Positions 47,721-56,463 of a DNA stretch of 57,000 nt are shown one piece after another. This stretch comes from Oscillospiraceae bacterium. Its GTDB lineage: Bacteria; Bacillota; Clostridia; Oscillospirales; Oscillospiraceae. The notes beneath the pieces were generated by a model. That model saw nothing but the letters and a program-made list of their open reading frames with translations. It ran no database searches and had not been told where the DNA came from. Where the stretch lies: assembly GCA_017436955.1 (NCBI GenBank), contig JAFSCD010000017.1:1-57000 (forward strand), read 5' to 3'. How positions within the stretch are numbered: position 1 is the stretch's first letter; each line of letters opens with the position of its first letter. The position numbers and the translations under genes are program-made.

Positions 47721-48413
47721 CTACAACGCAAAATATTCTTCCAAATGACGGACGCGGTGGACGTGGGGGTCGCTTTCAAAGCGGTCATCGTCCTGCCAGT
47801 GATCCAGCCAGACCACCTCCATATCCGCCCCACGGGCGCCTGCCACGTCGGAATCCGGGTCATCGCCCACGAACAGACATTCCCCATTCGTTACGCCCAG
47901 CAGCTTTGCGGCGTAATCAAATATCCGTCTGTCCGGCTTGTGGATGCCCAGCTGCGCCGAATATACCACGGCATCGAAAAGGTGCTCAATGCCCAACGCC
48001 GCCACCTTTTTGCGCTGATGCGCCAAAAGCTCCGGCACCACATTGGTAATAATGGCCGTTTTCAGCCCCCGGGCTTTCAGCTTCTTTATGATCCCCACCG
48101 CTTCCTGCGATGGCGAAACAAAATCCCGCATATGGGCGTAATAGTAGTCGATACACTGCTGCCGGACATAGGGCTTATCCGACGGATAACGCGCCAAAAG
48201 CGCCTGAAACGCATCCTCGTGGGTCATACTGTTGCGCTTGACCCGGGTCATCATATAGCCAACGGCTTCTGCTATAAATTCCTCACTGCGGTCTGGATAA
48301 AGGCACTGCCGGAACATACCCGGAAACACCTGCCGGGCAGTATCCCGACGGCTGTAGAGGGTCTCATCCAGATCCCACAGCACCGCCTTCTTCGTGCTGT
48401 CAAAGGTCGCCAT
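47721..48413 (-). CDS. HAD-family hydrolase
   Basis: 230 residues. Motif I DLDETL with nucleophile Asp14 and Asp16, motif II ITNVV, and motif IV VGDDPDSDVAGARGADM give a complete HAD phosphatase of the YjjG/pyrimidine 5'-nucleotidase-like type with a helical cap. ATG 48413 follows GAGGTGAGG. First gene of a two-gene operon with the uridine kinase-like gene, which makes a nucleotide-related substrate plausible. Confidence 0.9.
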   Translation of the reverse strand: MATFDSTKKAVLWDLDETLYSRRDTARQVFPGMFRQCLYPDRSEEFIAEAVGYMMTRVKRNSMTHEDAFQALLARYPSDKPYVRQQCIDYYYAHMRDFVSPSQEAVGIIKKLKARGLKTAIITNVVPELLAHQRKKVAALGIEHLFDAVVYSAQLGIHKPDRRIFDYAAKLLGVTNGECLFVGDDPDSDVAGARGADMEVVWLDHWQDDDRFESDPHVHRVRHLEEYFAL

Positions 48414-48432
48414 TTCCTCACCTCTTTTTGCT

Positions 48433-48461
48433 ATTATAGCACATCTTTGCTTCCTTTGCAA
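48433..48461 (-). promoter_or_regulatory. Promoter of the HAD-kinase operon
   Basis: Minus strand TTGCAA, 17-nt spacer, TATAAT. Confidence 0.7.
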
Positions 48462-48510: not shown

Positions 48511-48540
48511 TTGACTACCGCTCGAAAGATGTGGTATAAT
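48511..48540 (+). promoter_or_regulatory. Promoter of the TIR-NACHT gene
   Basis: TTGACT (48511-48516), 18-nt spacer, TATAAT (48535-48540), about 30 nt before the start codon. Strong and without visible operator. Confidence 0.72.
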
Positions 48541-48570
48541 GGTAAAAATATCACAATGGAGGGGACAGTT

Positions 48571-51500
48571 TTGAAGATTTTTATCAGCTACGGTCACGAG
48601 GATCATACCCAGGTAGTGGATCTTCTGTTTGATGCCCTGATCCAGGCAGGTCACGAGCCCTGGAAGGACGACCGCTACGAAGGCAACAGCGGCATCCCCG
48701 CAGGCCGTGATTTTACGCAGATCATCTACCAGGCCATTGACGATTCTGAATTTGTGATCGCCTTTGTCACCAATGTGACCCAGGACAAGCAGTACTGCCG
48801 TGATGAGCGGCAGCGCGCCTACAACAAAAAGGGCAACCACTTTATCCAGATCCGTATGGACTATGCCGATATTACCCTGGGCAACTCCTTAAGCTATATT
48901 GAAATGTCGGATGTGATCAGCAGCAACGGTCAGCTCAACCAGCGGCTGTTTGAGGACAAGCTGAAGTCCCTGTTTGCCGCCTTCCGGGATCCTGCCAGCT
49001 TTGCCGCAGGTGGTTTTACGCCCTGGGCAAAATTCGACACCCACCTGAAGGTACAGGGCGCGCTCCCTTACCACGAGTTTATTGCCTCTTTGGACAAAGA
49101 GGATTTCGTCGGCCGTCAATGGCTGCTGGAAAAATGCAAAAGCTGGGTGATGGACAGCTCTATCCCCTGCCGGCTGTTCGTGATTCTGGGCGAAGCCGGT
49201 ACCGGCAAGACCGCCTTTGTGCGGCATCTGGCAGCGGATGCGGAGCTGGTGCGCTCGGTACATATCTGCGTATACGACCGGCAGAGCACCCGTACCGTCA
49301 GAGAGACCCTGAAGGATCTTGCCTACGTACTGGCGCAGAATAACAGCCGCTACTTCGATTTCCTGAAGATGCGTGACTTTGACCAGCTTCAGGATATGAC
49401 GGTGGACGGTCTGTTTGAATTTCTGTTCGTGGAGCCGCTGAAAACCGAAAACCAGAAATACCTGCTGGTGATCGACGGCTTGGACGAAATGGAGGAAAAT
49501 ACCGGCTTCAAGCCGCTGATGCGGCTGTTCCGGCAGTATGCCCATCACCTCAATCCCAACATCTCCTTCCTGGTCACCGGCCGCCCCGACACATATATCA
49601 CCGACATGCTGAAAACCGTTGCCGCCGGTAAGCCTATGGAAAGCGTGCTGCTGGATAAGAACGCCAGCAAGGAAGACCTGCAGTATTTCATCGAGTCCAA
49701 GCTGAAGCAGCTGGACTGCTACAGCGAGAGCCTTGCCGGCAAGCTGCTGGAGGCCTGCGACGGCAATTTTGAGTATCTGTCGCTGTTGTTCCGGGAAGCT
49801 CTGGAGGAAGGTCTGCGGGTGTTTGACGGTATGAAAATCCCCCGGGGTCTGAACGAGCGCTACGCCCAGTATCTGGACAGAAGAATGGAAATGCTGGACT
49901 GCACACGCCTGAGCAAGGAGCAGCGGCTGCTGCTTTCCGCGCTGTGCATCGCCTATGAGCCGCTGCCCGTTTCCGTGCTTTGCGCCATCACCGCCCTGGA
50001 GGATTACGACGTTTTCGATGAGCTGGCGCTGTTTGGCTCGCTGATCCGTCAAATCGACGCCAACAGCAGCGACCCCCGGATCTGCCTGTTCACCAAGAGC
50101 TTCCGGGATTTCCTGCTGGGCAGACAGTTTACAAAATACTGCGCCGACCACAAGCTGGGTACCCGGCTGTTTGCGCAGTACCTGATGGATAAATGCACTA
50201 CGGAAAAGGCACTGCAGAAGTATCCTTATCTGGATCAGTACGGCTTTGCGCATCTTCTGCGCTATGCTGAAGAGGAGCCGGAAGCGGTCAGGGAGTACTG
50301 CAAGCAGCTGGAAGCTGCCGGCATCGACCTGAATCAACGGCTTGCCAATGCCCTGCATCAGGGCGATTCCTCCACGATCCGCAGCTACTGGCAGTTCGGC
50401 AGAGAAATCGGCAGCCTGGCTACCGTCATCACCTACCTGAAGGGCAGGCGCAGTGCGGATGCCCTGACCGAGTTTATTGCCATTTACAGGGAAGAAGGTT
50501 ATGCCTCCCGGGCAGCAACGCTGGAAGCCGACATCCTGCTGTGGAACCCCTCGCCGGAGGTATACAAGCAGGCGGCGGCTCTGTATATGGAGTCACTGGA
50601 GCTGGAGGAGAAGCAGCATGAAGCCAATCCCACCTACCGCAGCCGCCGGAACCTTTCCGTTTCCTGTAACCGGCTGGGTGATGTTTGCCAGCGGCAGCAG
50701 ACCCCCGAGGGCTTTGCCCAGGCAGAACAATGGTTCCGCAGGGCGCTGGCATTCTGCGAGGAGAATTATCAGGAAAATCCCGGCTACCAGAGTCGCCGTG
50801 ACCTTTTCATCGACTACAGCAATATGGGCGACCTTGCCAAGCGCAAGCAGACGCCGGAAGGCGACGCAGAAGCCGAGGAGTGGTACCAGAAGGCGTTGGA
50901 GCTCTGCCTGCAAAACCATCAGGAGAAGCCCTGCTACGAAAGCCGCCGTGACCTTGCCATCCGCTACAACCGCTTAAGTGAGCTTGCCCGGCGTAAGCTG
51001 ACCCCGGAGGGCGATGCAGAGGCAGAAAAGCTGTGCCGTGAGGCTTTGGCTCTGTCGGAGCAGAATCTCCGTGACAACCCCAGCTTTGAAAGCCGCCGGG
51101 ATCTTGCCATCGAATACAGCACCCTGGGCGATATGGCGCAGCGCAAGAACACCCCGGAGGGTAATGCACAAGCCGAGCAATGGTACCGCAAGGCGCTGGA
51201 TATGGACGAGCAGAATTACAAGGCAACGCCCAACTATGAAAGCCAGCGAAGCCTTATGGTGCGCTACAGCCGTCTGGGTGAGCTTGCACAGCGCAAGCAG
51301 ACGCCGGAGGACGATGACCAGGCAGAACAATGGTTCCGTAAGGTCCTGGATATCTGCGAGCAGAACTATCAGGCCAACCCCGGCTATGAAACGCTGCGGG
51401 ATCTGTCCATCGTCTACAACCGTCTGGGCGACCTTTGCCAGCGCAAGCAGACTCCGGAGGGCTATGCGGAAGCGGAAGACTGGTTCCGCAAGGCGCTGGA

Positions 51501-54378
51501 TCTGGTTAAGCAAAACTATGAGAGCAATCCCAGCTATGACAGCCGCCGCGGTCTGATCATCCGCTACAACCGTCTGGGCGACCTTGCCCAGCGCAGGAAC
51601 ACCCCGGAAGCCGATCAGGAAGCAGAGGCGTGGTACAAAAAAGCGCTGGAGCTGTCCGAGGAGAACTATCGCTCCAACCCCAACTACGAAAGTCTGCGGG
51701 ATATATCCATCGACTATAACCGTCTGGGCGACCTTTGTATGCGCAAGCTGACCCCGGAGGGCCTGGCACAGGCTGCCGAGTGGTTCCAGAAGGCGCTGAA
51801 GATTTACGAGGACAACCACAACACCAATCCCAATTACGAAAGCCGGCGTGACCTTGCCATCTGCTACAACCGTCTGGGTGATGTTTCCCGGCGCCGGCAG
51901 ACCCCGGAGGGTGATGCGCAGGCGCAGCATTGGTACGAGCAGGCCGTTGCGCTGTGCAAAAAGAATTTCCAGACAAATCCCACCTTTGAAAGCCGTCGGG
52001 ATCTTTCCATTGACTATAACAATCTGGGTGACCTTTGTCAGCGCAAAAATACGCCGGAAGGCTACGCCCAGGCCGAGCAATGGTATAAGGCCGCGCTGGA
52101 AATGGACGAGCAGAATCACAACGCCAACCCCAGCTATGACAGCCGGCGCAGCCTGATCATCCGCTACAACCGTCTGGGCGACCTTGCCCTGCGCAAGCAA
52201 TCCCCCGAGGGCGACGCTCAGGCCGAGCAGTGGTTCCGTAAGGCTATGGAGCTGTGCCAGCAAAATCTGGACAGCAATCCCAGCTACGAAAGCCGTCGGG
52301 ATCTTTTCATCGACTACAGCAATCTGGGTGATCTTTACCAGCGCAAGCAGACGCCGGAAGCCGATGCCGAAGCGGAAAAATACTACCGTAAGGCTATGGA
52401 GCTGTGTCAGCAAAATCTGGATTCCAATCCCGGCTTTGAAAGTCAGCGGGATCTTTCCACCTGCTACAACCTTTTGGGCATTCTGGCGCAGCGCAAGCAG
52501 ACGCCGGAAGGCTATGCCCGGGCAGAGCAGTGGTACCGCAAGGCTCTGGAGCTGACGGAGCGGAATCATAACACCAACCCCAGCTATGACACCCGGCGCA
52601 GCCTGATCATCCGCTACAACCGTCTGGGTGACCTTGCCCTGCGCAAGCTGACCGCCGCAGGCAAATCGGAAGCGGAAGCATGGTATCGCAAAGCGCTGGA
52701 TTTCTGCGAGCAGAACCACGAAGCCTATCCCGGCTACGAAAGCAAGCGGGATCTTTCCATCGGCTATATCAATCTGGGCGATTTGATACAGTTCAAGCAA
52801 ACGCCGGAGGCAGAGGCCGAGGCGGAGGACTATTTCCGTAAATCCCTGGAGCTGTGCGAGGAAAACGACCGCACCAATCCCAGCTACGACAGTCGCCGCA
52901 GCCTGATGCTCCGCTACAACCGTCTGGGCGATCTGGCAAAGCGCCGGCAGACCCCGGCGGGTAACGAAGAGGCAGAGCAGTGGTTCCGCAAAGCCCTGGA
53001 GCTGGGCGAGCAAAACTGCAAGGAATATCCCAACTACGAAAGTCGCCGGGATCTTTCCATCATTTACAACCGCCTGGGCGACCTGAGCCTGCAGAAGAAA
53101 ACCTCTGCCGGCATTACGGAAGCGGAAGAATGGTTCCAAAAGGCGCTGGCGATCGACGAAGAGAACTATAAAAACAGCCCCAGCTACGAAAGCCGCCGGG
53201 GTCTGATCATCCGGTATAACCGTTTGGCCGATCTGTGCATGTACAGGCACACCGCCGAAGGTGATGCCCAGGCAGAGGAGCTGTATCAAAAGACAACAGA
53301 CCTGGCAGAGCAGAATCTCAAGATCAACCCCAGCTATGAAAGCCGCCGGGATCTTGCCATTGCTTACAACCGTCTGGGTGATCTTTATCTGCGCAAGAAC
53401 ACGCTGGAAGCAAGCACGCAGGCCGAGCGGATGTTCCTGCGGGCGCTGGATCTTGCCAAGCAGAATCACAGTACCAACCCCGGTATTGAAAGCCTGCAGG
53501 ATCTGCTCCGGGACTACAACCGTCTGGCAGAACTGTCGCAGCGCAAGAATACCCCCGCAGGCTTTGCGCAGGCAGACAAATGGTTCCGGAAGGCGCTGGA
53601 GATGGACGAGGAGGTTTTCGCCGCCGCGCCCACCTACCAAAACCGCCGTGAGCTGATCATCCGCTGTCAGCGTCTGGGCGATCTTTGCCAGCGCAGGAAT
53701 ACCACGGAAAGCACTGCGGAAGCAAATCAGTTTTATCAAAGAGCGCTGCAGCTGAGCGAACAAAACTACGCGGAAAATCCCTGCTACGAAAGCCGCCGGG
53801 ATCTGGCGATCAGCTGCAACCGTGTGGGCGACCAGGAGCTGCGCAAGAAAACGGAGGAAGGCAACGCCGCGGCAGAGCCTTTGTTCCGCAAGGCTCTGGA
53901 GCTGGCAGAAATCAACATTCAGGCAAATCCCATGGTCGAAAGCCAGCGGGATCTGGCGCTGGATTACAACCGCATCGGCGAGCTTTGCCAGCGCAAAAAC
54001 ACCCCTGAAGGTCTGGTAGAGGCAGAAACCTGGTTCCGCAGGGCGATGATCCTCTTTGAGCGCAACTACCAGATCGCCCCCGGTATCCAGACCCGTCGGG
54101 AGCTTTCCCTCGTCTACAACCGCTTGGGTGATCTGGCAAAGCAGAAGCAAACGCCCGAGGGTAACGCCGCCGCCGAGCAATGGTACCGGAATATGCTGGT
54201 GCTGGATGAGCAGAACCACCAGCTTATGCCCAGCGCGCAGAGCCGGCACGATCTGAGCATCACATACAGCAGACTGGCTGCGATCGTCATTCGCAAGGGC
54301 TATCCGGACGGTCTGGCAGAGGCCTGCCAATGGATGAACAAGCGCCTGGCGCCCTTCTTCAAGAAGCAGGAAAGCTAA
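48571..54378 (+). CDS. TIR-NACHT STAND NTPase with 25 TPR-like repeats
   Basis: 1935 residues. (1) TIR domain about 1-135: KIFISYGHED at the start and YCRDERQRA, in which C-x-x-E puts a candidate catalytic Glu at residue 79. (2) NACHT/STAND NTPase about 180-420: FVGR, Walker A GEAGTGKT (about 207), Walker B LLVIDGLDEM (about 300) and FLVTGRPD, then a helical winged-helix-like region to about 660. (3) Residues 667-1916: 25 contiguous 50-residue TPR-like units. TTG 48571 is chosen because GGAGGGG lies 6 nt upstream; ATG 48556 overlaps that site. I infer an NLR-like sensor whose repeats bind a trigger and whose TIR acts on NAD or a related nucleotide; defence function is not shown. Confidence 0.88.
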   Translation: MKIFISYGHEDHTQVVDLLFDALIQAGHEPWKDDRYEGNSGIPAGRDFTQIIYQAIDDSEFVIAFVTNVTQDKQYCRDERQRAYNKKGNHFIQIRMDYADITLGNSLSYIEMSDVISSNGQLNQRLFEDKLKSLFAAFRDPASFAAGGFTPWAKFDTHLKVQGALPYHEFIASLDKEDFVGRQWLLEKCKSWVMDSSIPCRLFVILGEAGTGKTAFVRHLAADAELVRSVHICVYDRQSTRTVRETLKDLAYVLAQNNSRYFDFLKMRDFDQLQDMTVDGLFEFLFVEPLKTENQKYLLVIDGLDEMEENTGFKPLMRLFRQYAHHLNPNISFLVTGRPDTYITDMLKTVAAGKPMESVLLDKNASKEDLQYFIESKLKQLDCYSESLAGKLLEACDGNFEYLSLLFREALEEGLRVFDGMKIPRGLNERYAQYLDRRMEMLDCTRLSKEQRLLLSALCIAYEPLPVSVLCAITALEDYDVFDELALFGSLIRQIDANSSDPRICLFTKSFRDFLLGRQFTKYCADHKLGTRLFAQYLMDKCTTEKALQKYPYLDQYGFAHLLRYAEEEPEAVREYCKQLEAAGIDLNQRLANALHQGDSSTIRSYWQFGREIGSLATVITYLKGRRSADALTEFIAIYREEGYASRAATLEADILLWNPSPEVYKQAAALYMESLELEEKQHEANPTYRSRRNLSVSCNRLGDVCQRQQTPEGFAQAEQWFRRALAFCEENYQENPGYQSRRDLFIDYSNMGDLAKRKQTPEGDAEAEEWYQKALELCLQNHQEKPCYESRRDLAIRYNRLSELARRKLTPEGDAEAEKLCREALALSEQNLRDNPSFESRRDLAIEYSTLGDMAQRKNTPEGNAQAEQWYRKALDMDEQNYKATPNYESQRSLMVRYSRLGELAQRKQTPEDDDQAEQWFRKVLDICEQNYQANPGYETLRDLSIVYNRLGDLCQRKQTPEGYAEAEDWFRKALDLVKQNYESNPSYDSRRGLIIRYNRLGDLAQRRNTPEADQEAEAWYKKALELSEENYRSNPNYESLRDISIDYNRLGDLCMRKLTPEGLAQAAEWFQKALKIYEDNHNTNPNYESRRDLAICYNRLGDVSRRRQTPEGDAQAQHWYEQAVALCKKNFQTNPTFESRRDLSIDYNNLGDLCQRKNTPEGYAQAEQWYKAALEMDEQNHNANPSYDSRRSLIIRYNRLGDLALRKQSPEGDAQAEQWFRKAMELCQQNLDSNPSYESRRDLFIDYSNLGDLYQRKQTPEADAEAEKYYRKAMELCQQNLDSNPGFESQRDLSTCYNLLGILAQRKQTPEGYARAEQWYRKALELTERNHNTNPSYDTRRSLIIRYNRLGDLALRKLTAAGKSEAEAWYRKALDFCEQNHEAYPGYESKRDLSIGYINLGDLIQFKQTPEAEAEAEDYFRKSLELCEENDRTNPSYDSRRSLMLRYNRLGDLAKRRQTPAGNEEAEQWFRKALELGEQNCKEYPNYESRRDLSIIYNRLGDLSLQKKTSAGITEAEEWFQKALAIDEENYKNSPSYESRRGLIIRYNRLADLCMYRHTAEGDAQAEELYQKTTDLAEQNLKINPSYESRRDLAIAYNRLGDLYLRKNTLEASTQAERMFLRALDLAKQNHSTNPGIESLQDLLRDYNRLAELSQRKNTPAGFAQADKWFRKALEMDEEVFAAAPTYQNRRELIIRCQRLGDLCQRRNTTESTAEANQFYQRALQLSEQNYAENPCYESRRDLAISCNRVGDQELRKKTEEGNAAAEPLFRKALELAEINIQANPMVESQRDLALDYNRIGELCQRKNTPEGLVEAETWFRRAMILFERNYQIAPGIQTRRELSLVYNRLGDLAKQKQTPEGNAAAEQWYRNMLVLDEQNHQLMPSAQSRHDLSITYSRLAAIVIRKGYPDGLAEACQWMNKRLAPFFKKQES
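50569..54318 (+). repeat. 25 tandem 150-bp repeats encoding TPR-like units
   Basis: Units start at 50569 and every 150 bp to 54169, with no insertions or deletions. Each encodes 50 residues containing W[YF]RKALEL, NPSYESRRDL, YNRLGDL and RKQTPEG in that order. Some units (numbers 7, 11, 14, 16, 18 counting from 1) carry an alternative RR[SG]L[IM][IL]RYNRL segment, pointing to block duplications. Confidence 0.92.
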
Positions 54379-54385
54379 ATACAAC

Positions 54386-54419
54386 AAAAAACCGTTCCTC
54401 GAAAGAGGAACGGTTTTTT
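54386..54419. terminator. Bidirectional terminator between the TIR-NACHT and YbjN genes
   Basis: Stem AAAAACCGTTCCTC / GAGGAACGGTTTTT with a GAAA loop and T-runs on both strands. Confidence 0.9.
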
Positions 54420-54450: not shown

Positions 54451-54864
54451 TCAAGGGTTGCCCCACAGATACTTTGCGAAGGTGGGATATGCATCGTCAG
54501 TGATGTTGACAACGCGGCGAACCAGAGACAGGCACTCCTTGCCGCAGGTCTCGGGGTCGATATAAGCGTCGATAGAAGCAGCAACATCGGAGTCATCGTC
54601 GATGCAGTACTTGACCCAACGGTAGGTCTTGTTGACCTCGTTGCAAGCCATCAGGCCGGCAGCTTCCTTGCCCTTGAAGTTGCCGATCTCCCAGCACTTG
54701 AACTGAACCAGGGGATCGCCGTCTTCATCAAAGAATACCAGAACGGGGATGTGCTTCAGGTTGTCACCGTTGTAGGTAACTCTGACGCAGTGCTCGTTGA
54801 TCTCTTCGTATCTGACGCCTTCGCTGTCCATATAACGCATAAACAGGTTCTTGTAGTTAGCCAT
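54451..54864 (-). CDS. YbjN domain-containing protein
   Basis: 137 residues. The pattern MANYKNLFMRYMDSEGVRYEE, then VRVTYNGDNL and the late RRVVNITDDAYPTFAKYLWG fits the YbjN/sensory-type type III secretion chaperone-like fold, cytoplasmic and of unknown function. AGGAGG before the ATG. It is convergent with the TIR-NACHT gene and shares its terminator; a functional tie is not implied. Confidence 0.7.
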   Translation of the reverse strand: MANYKNLFMRYMDSEGVRYEEINEHCVRVTYNGDNLKHIPVLVFFDEDGDPLVQFKCWEIGNFKGKEAAGLMACNEVNKTYRWVKYCIDDDSDVAASIDAYIDPETCGKECLSLVRRVVNITDDAYPTFAKYLWGNP

Positions 54865-55906: not shown

Positions 55907-55931
55907 AATTAGCCCTTGATAGCAGCCTGGG
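55907..55931. repeat. Left copy of a 25-bp direct repeat of the ppdK 3' end
   Basis: Starts AATTAGCCCTTGATAGC and ends CAGCCTGGG; identical to 56439-56463. On the minus strand it encodes QAAIKG plus the stop, as in ppdK. Confidence 0.85.
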
Positions 55932-56438: not shown

Positions 56439-56463
56439 AATTAGCCCTTGATAGCAGCCTGGG
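56439..56463. repeat. Right copy of the 25-bp direct repeat (genuine ppdK 3' end)
   Basis: Identical to 55907-55931; contains the ppdK stop codon (56441-56443 on the complement). Confidence 0.85.

Follow-up and report, generated by a model that had tools for sequence, protein, structure and literature searches.

The 57,000-nucleotide stretch analysed here (Oscillospiraceae bacterium, assembly GCA_017436955.1, contig JAFSCD010000017.1, positions 1 to 57,000), referred to below as the window, carries near its right end a gene for a TIR-NACHT-TPR protein. An open frame of 1935 codons on the forward strand (48571-54378) encodes a product of 1935 amino acids (aa), in which a Pfam scan places TIR_2, NPHP3_N, NACHT and TPR_12 above their cut-offs. 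Within this one protein an N-terminal effector is followed by a central NTPase and a C-terminal repeat domain, and the repeats would serve as the sensor. Both flanking genes, a HAD hydrolase (47721-48461) and a YbjN-like gene (54451-54864), lie on the opposite strand, so the TIR-NACHT-TPR gene stands alone. Its features are collected in Table 1.

Table 1. Features of the TIR-NACHT-TPR gene and its product, with window positions.
Feature	Position	Strand	Basis or remark
Promoter-like TTGACT-18-TATAAT, TG ahead of second hexamer	48511..48540	+	11/12 consensus matches
Shine-Dalgarno GGAGGGG, six bases 5' of TTG start	48558..48564	+	read from sequence
Coding sequence, 1935 aa TIR-NACHT-TPR protein	48571..54378	+	open reading frame, translation, Pfam
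TIR domain, residues 1-140	48571..48990	+	
Codon of Glu79, candidate catalytic residue	48805..48807	+	invariant 8/8
NACHT/STAND NTPase core, residues ~183-347	49117..49611	+	NPHP3_N and NACHT matches
Walker A GEAGTGKT, residues 207-214	49189..49212	+	G207, G210, G212, K213 invariant 8/8
Walker B-type motif IDGLDE, residues 301-306	49471..49488	+	I301, D302, L304, D305, E306 invariant 8/8
Mostly helical region, residues 351-685, including half TPR unit at 660-684	49621..50625	+	structure model, low confidence to ~residue 520
25 TPR units, exactly 50 residues each, residues 686-1935	50626..54375	+	unit analysis, unit model
Terminator-like hairpin, 15 pairs	54386..54419	+	consensus match only

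The catalytic and nucleotide-binding parts of the protein are well preserved. Both Walker motifs are intact, and the eight aligned sequences all retain D78, E79, G207, G210, G212, K213, D302, D305, E306 and R338; at C76 one of them, the distant relative L038, has another residue. E79 aligns with the WCWDE stretch of Cat1 in a weak match (E 0.01), and a glutamate at this position is catalytic in other TIR domains. A sequence-only reading of this locus had proposed an N-terminal TIR domain with Glu79 as candidate catalytic residue, an intact NACHT/STAND NTPase and a uniform repeat domain of about 1250 residues with 25 TPR-like units, and the analysis bears out all three. Loss of the TIR glutamate or of Walker A, which it had named as a sign against its view, is not seen in the eight sequences.

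The TPR array contains no insertions or deletions among its 25 units. Mean identity between units is 50% in protein and 63% in DNA, and by codon position it is 68/69/52% (positions 1/2/3), a pattern expected where purifying selection acts on a coding array. Fourfold sites, 57% identical between units against the 32% expected from composition, show no saturation. Recent copying of units was rejected, the best unit pair being only 76% identical in DNA. Also set aside were a Pfam IMS_C match on the repeats, with no stretch passing alone, NCBIfam FimS, RbfA and CreA matches, which lie far below their cut-offs and likewise have no stretch passing alone, and an antisense reading frame (50974-54387, 1137 aa), which is taken to arise as a side effect of the repeats. 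A PDB sequence search with 10 units returned 0 matches.

Relatives of the protein are few. A genome_contigs scan with six peptide patterns, which picks up close relatives only, covered one genome per species for 84,980 species and returned 39 stretches. Four of these encode relatives (L005, L006, L007 and L008), all from metagenome-assembled genomes titled Clostridiales, Ruminococcus, Oscillospiraceae or Clostridia and 51-54% identical to the window protein over residues 1-706. By a hidden Markov model of the unit, the window protein has 25 full units, L005 (1275 residues) 12, L006 (879 residues) 4, L007 (983 residues) 6 and L008 (1275 residues) 12, with a half unit ahead of the array in the window protein, L005 and L006. 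The long 25-unit arm is therefore special to the window copy, its relatives having 4-12 full units. In three distant relatives the same model finds 0 units (L036, L038) or 2 (L037), which marks the 50-residue unit as a trait of the close family. Overlapping samples at four taxonomic levels give a similar picture: the own genome is the sole match among 136 genomes at genus level (none in the other 135) and among 394 at order level; 2 of 300 match at family level, own included, with a distant relative in genome G294; and 2 of 398 match at phylum level, own included, with two distant relatives in G876. This is a rare, unnamed family.

A comparison of L005 with L008, the two closest relatives, shows how unevenly its parts change. 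Identity is 87% in the TIR domain, 91% in NACHT, 77% in residues 351-660 and 62% in the repeats, and the corresponding ratios of nonsynonymous to synonymous change (dN/dS, computed with our own script for this single pair, with dS similar across regions) are 0.14, 0.10, 0.28 and 0.40. This fits a constrained switch joined to an arm under looser constraint, or under pressure to change.

The architecture has clear precedents. TIR-NBD proteins, in which NBD denotes a nucleotide-binding domain, are described with LRR, WD40 or TPR domains in plants and bacteria (PMC9153377), and other work describes TPR-bearing STAND NTPases as well as ones with TIR effectors (PMC8195603, PMC7159879). Bacterial and plant TIR-NBD-TPR proteins (the third TIR architecture in PMC9153377; TNPs in plants) share the identical order of TIR, NBD and TPR, although plant TNPs use NB-ARC where the window protein has NACHT/NPHP3_N. 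Avs/AVAST proteins likewise follow an effector-STAND-sensor plan in a single protein; Avs5 has an NAD-type effector, Sir2, where the window protein carries a TIR, and the repeat domain of Avs5 is required for activation (PMC12931631). Among the relatives, L038 matches the PADLOC Avs1b model weakly over the NTPase (E 6e-5). Thoeris ThsB and Cat1 resemble the window protein in TIR fold and glutamate region, but the window protein has NACHT and TPRs in addition. Pfam ThsB_TIR scores 21.6 bits on it, just above the cut-off of 21.2, and NCBIfam ThcB4 scores 23.7 against a cut-off of 220. Its Pfam scan contains no CARF match, and no ThsA-type partner was recognised among 18 Pfam-scanned neighbours (35416-56334), 6 of which have no Pfam match and beside which some reading frames went unscanned. 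Nephrocystin-3 type proteins also place an NPHP3_N-type NTPase ahead of TPRs, but nephrocystin-3 itself lacks a TIR and belongs to eukaryotic cilia. In the literature searched, no bacterial family built of 50-residue units carries a name, and no paper deals with the window family. Of the suggestion that the protein is unusual and possibly undescribed, the part concerning architecture falls, since that design is already in print for bacteria (PMC9153377); what is new is a rare family with an unusually long array in the window copy.

Two distant lineages connect this architecture to RyR domains. In G294, the relative L038:9809-13249 has the order TIR-NACHT-TPR-RyR in one protein, with a C-terminal RyR match at E 9.8e-28, and a separate, divergent RyR gene (G294:C4:55229-55498, minus strand) lies just upstream. 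In G876, L036:3497-12411 carries on one strand a TIR gene, a TrkA_N-RyR channel-like gene, an unassigned gene and the TIR-NACHT-TPR gene, placing the TrkA_N-RyR gene two genes upstream of the relative. A second TIR-NACHT-TPR copy, cut by the contig end, follows about 14 kb further on (L037:4465-6863); by eye, a gene downstream of L036 resembles an IS110-type transposase. Phage RyR-domain proteins are reported to cleave or sequester 2' and 3' cyclic ADP-ribose (2'cADPR and 3'cADPR), which are products of TIR enzymes (PMC13232231, a 2026 preprint). The RyR domain of the sister lineage would read or clear the TIR product. The L038 fusion and its divergent RyR gene suggest a TIR-to-RyR nucleotide signalling pair, and for some of these TIRs the output may be a signal, not mere NAD depletion.

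Of 7 genomes searched, 5 contain RyR matches above the cut-off, as do 0 of 14 controls. A Pfam scan of the window protein shows no RyR domain, the stretches fetched for the window copy and L005-L008 contain no RyR gene, and neither G1173 nor G1176, which carry L005 and L008, gives a RyR match. In the L006 and L007 genomes the RyR matches are located elsewhere, away from the relatives. The own genome has a RyR gene on contigs 12 and 14, in an identical gene row that is not beside the TIR-NACHT-TPR gene. This row (L050:3013-11148 on contig 14; also at the end of contig 12) comprises a weakly Card1-like gene (25.2 bits, cut-off 26.4), an AAA-M41 protease fusion, a 947-aa protein without a Pfam match and the small RyR gene, and is a candidate signalling or defence operon.

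The surroundings of the gene are variable. In G724, of the same genus, capsule genes, an inverted HAD-udk pair and, at the contig end, a ppdk-like gene lie within 6 kb together with three other small genes. This syntenic stretch contains neither a TIR-NACHT-TPR gene nor a YbjN-like gene, which identifies 48.5-56.4 kb of the window as a variable site. The slot by the ppdk-like gene of G724 holds a SLOG-like gene of the YspA family (L030:9796-10290, minus strand; 23.8 bits, below the cut-off of 27.7). In the window, a perfect 25-base direct repeat (55907-55931 and 56439-56463) flanks a 122-aa reading frame, its second copy lying at the 3' end of the ppdk-like gene; the pair is perhaps an insertion scar. 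Promoter-like sites in the region number 6 against a mean of 2.4 in shuffles and rest on consensus match only; terminator-like hairpins number 13 against a mean of 6.9. Contig 16 of the own genome encodes a protein that matches TIR_2 but not NACHT and carries uniform TPRs of 42 residues (L039:8670-11147), a second TIR and long-TPR protein in the same genome.

Among the relatives, L006 adjoins phage genes, namely Sak4-like (7e-75), primase (1.4e-301) and RusA-like (2.6e-7). On its other side lies a second TIR gene (L006:1-1352, minus strand), divergent from the relative and cut by the contig end. L005 and L008 both have an MFS gene upstream, and L007 adjoins peptidase and hydrolase-type genes.

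The explanation that probably fits these observations best is an immune sensor of the STAND (NLR) type, encoded by one gene and gained by horizontal transfer; its TPR arm would bind a protein of the invader, and its TIR would then cleave NAD+. In the resting state the C-terminal solenoid and an ADP-bound NTPase would keep the sensor shut. Binding of a protein from a phage or another invader along the TPR superhelix would open it, and ATP binding would drive oligomerisation; the clustered TIRs would become active, cleave NAD+ through Glu79 and bring about growth stop or cell death before the invader spreads. Recognition would be set by the number and sequence of TPR units, with TIR and NACHT constant. 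The immune-type assignment, already made in the sequence-only reading, draws on the intact motifs, the patchy presence, the empty site in G724, the phage genes beside L006 and the faster change of the arm compared with the effector. Its genomic context is mixed. The defence-gene enrichment expected around homologues did not appear: the neighbours scanned around the window copy, L005, L007 and L008 include no gene recognised as belonging to a defence system, and the last three loci slightly lower confidence in the assignment. Other points also weigh against it. No PADLOC Avs model matches at E <= 0.01, and none of the 4 PADLOC matches is Avs. A tblastn search of the first 643 residues against phage and plasmid records found no relative, and four viral-contig scans found 0. 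The absence counts include many incomplete metagenome-assembled genomes. The NTPase part of the structure model is poor (predicted local distance difference test blocks of 45-67), which limits what a comparison of the model with known structures can say; no NACHT entry stood out there. Finally, the repeat dN/dS is net purifying, so that diversifying selection is not demonstrated, and relaxed constraint would give the identical pattern.

Other readings shift the output or the target. There is an appreciable, minority chance that the TIR makes a cyclic ADP-ribose-type signal instead of depleting NAD+, with a RyR-domain or channel-like protein to read that signal or clear it away. The L038 fusion with its divergent RyR gene, the TrkA_N-RyR gene on the same strand as L036 and the phage RyR proteins that bind or hydrolyse 2'cADPR and 3'cADPR (PMC13232231, preprint) all point this way, but the link comprises two loci, the close family shows none, and several of these genomes contain small RyR genes in any case. 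A guard against other mobile elements, such as superinfecting prophages or conjugative plasmids, rather than lytic phages is unlikely: L006 sits beside phage replication genes like a prophage-borne defence, yet this is one of five loci, on a contig of 9165 bases. A STAND regulator with no immune role, or a TIR protein directed at an animal host, is very improbable. The housekeeping and capsule genes around the window copy and the record of one relative, which names sheep rectum, would suit it; patchy presence and the empty site argue against it, as does, by eye, a sequence that begins directly with the TIR fold and has no signal peptide.

An extension of the immune-sensor reading, distinctly doubtful as a whole, is that of an NLR with a length-tunable arm. 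The arm would gain or lose units (4-25) and, measured against silent change, evolve at about four times the rate of the NTPase. The TIR would remain constant, and in sister lineages it would work together with RyR domains by which a cyclic ADP-ribose signal is read or erased. If true, bacteria would use a calcium-channel-type domain to read the product of a TIR receptor.

Bacterial NLR-like proteins of this kind bear on the origin of plant and animal immune receptors. With its constant switch and an arm of 4-25 units, the family offers a natural series for how array length sets recognition, and the RyR link in its distant relatives provides a testable TIR-to-RyR signalling route inside bacteria.
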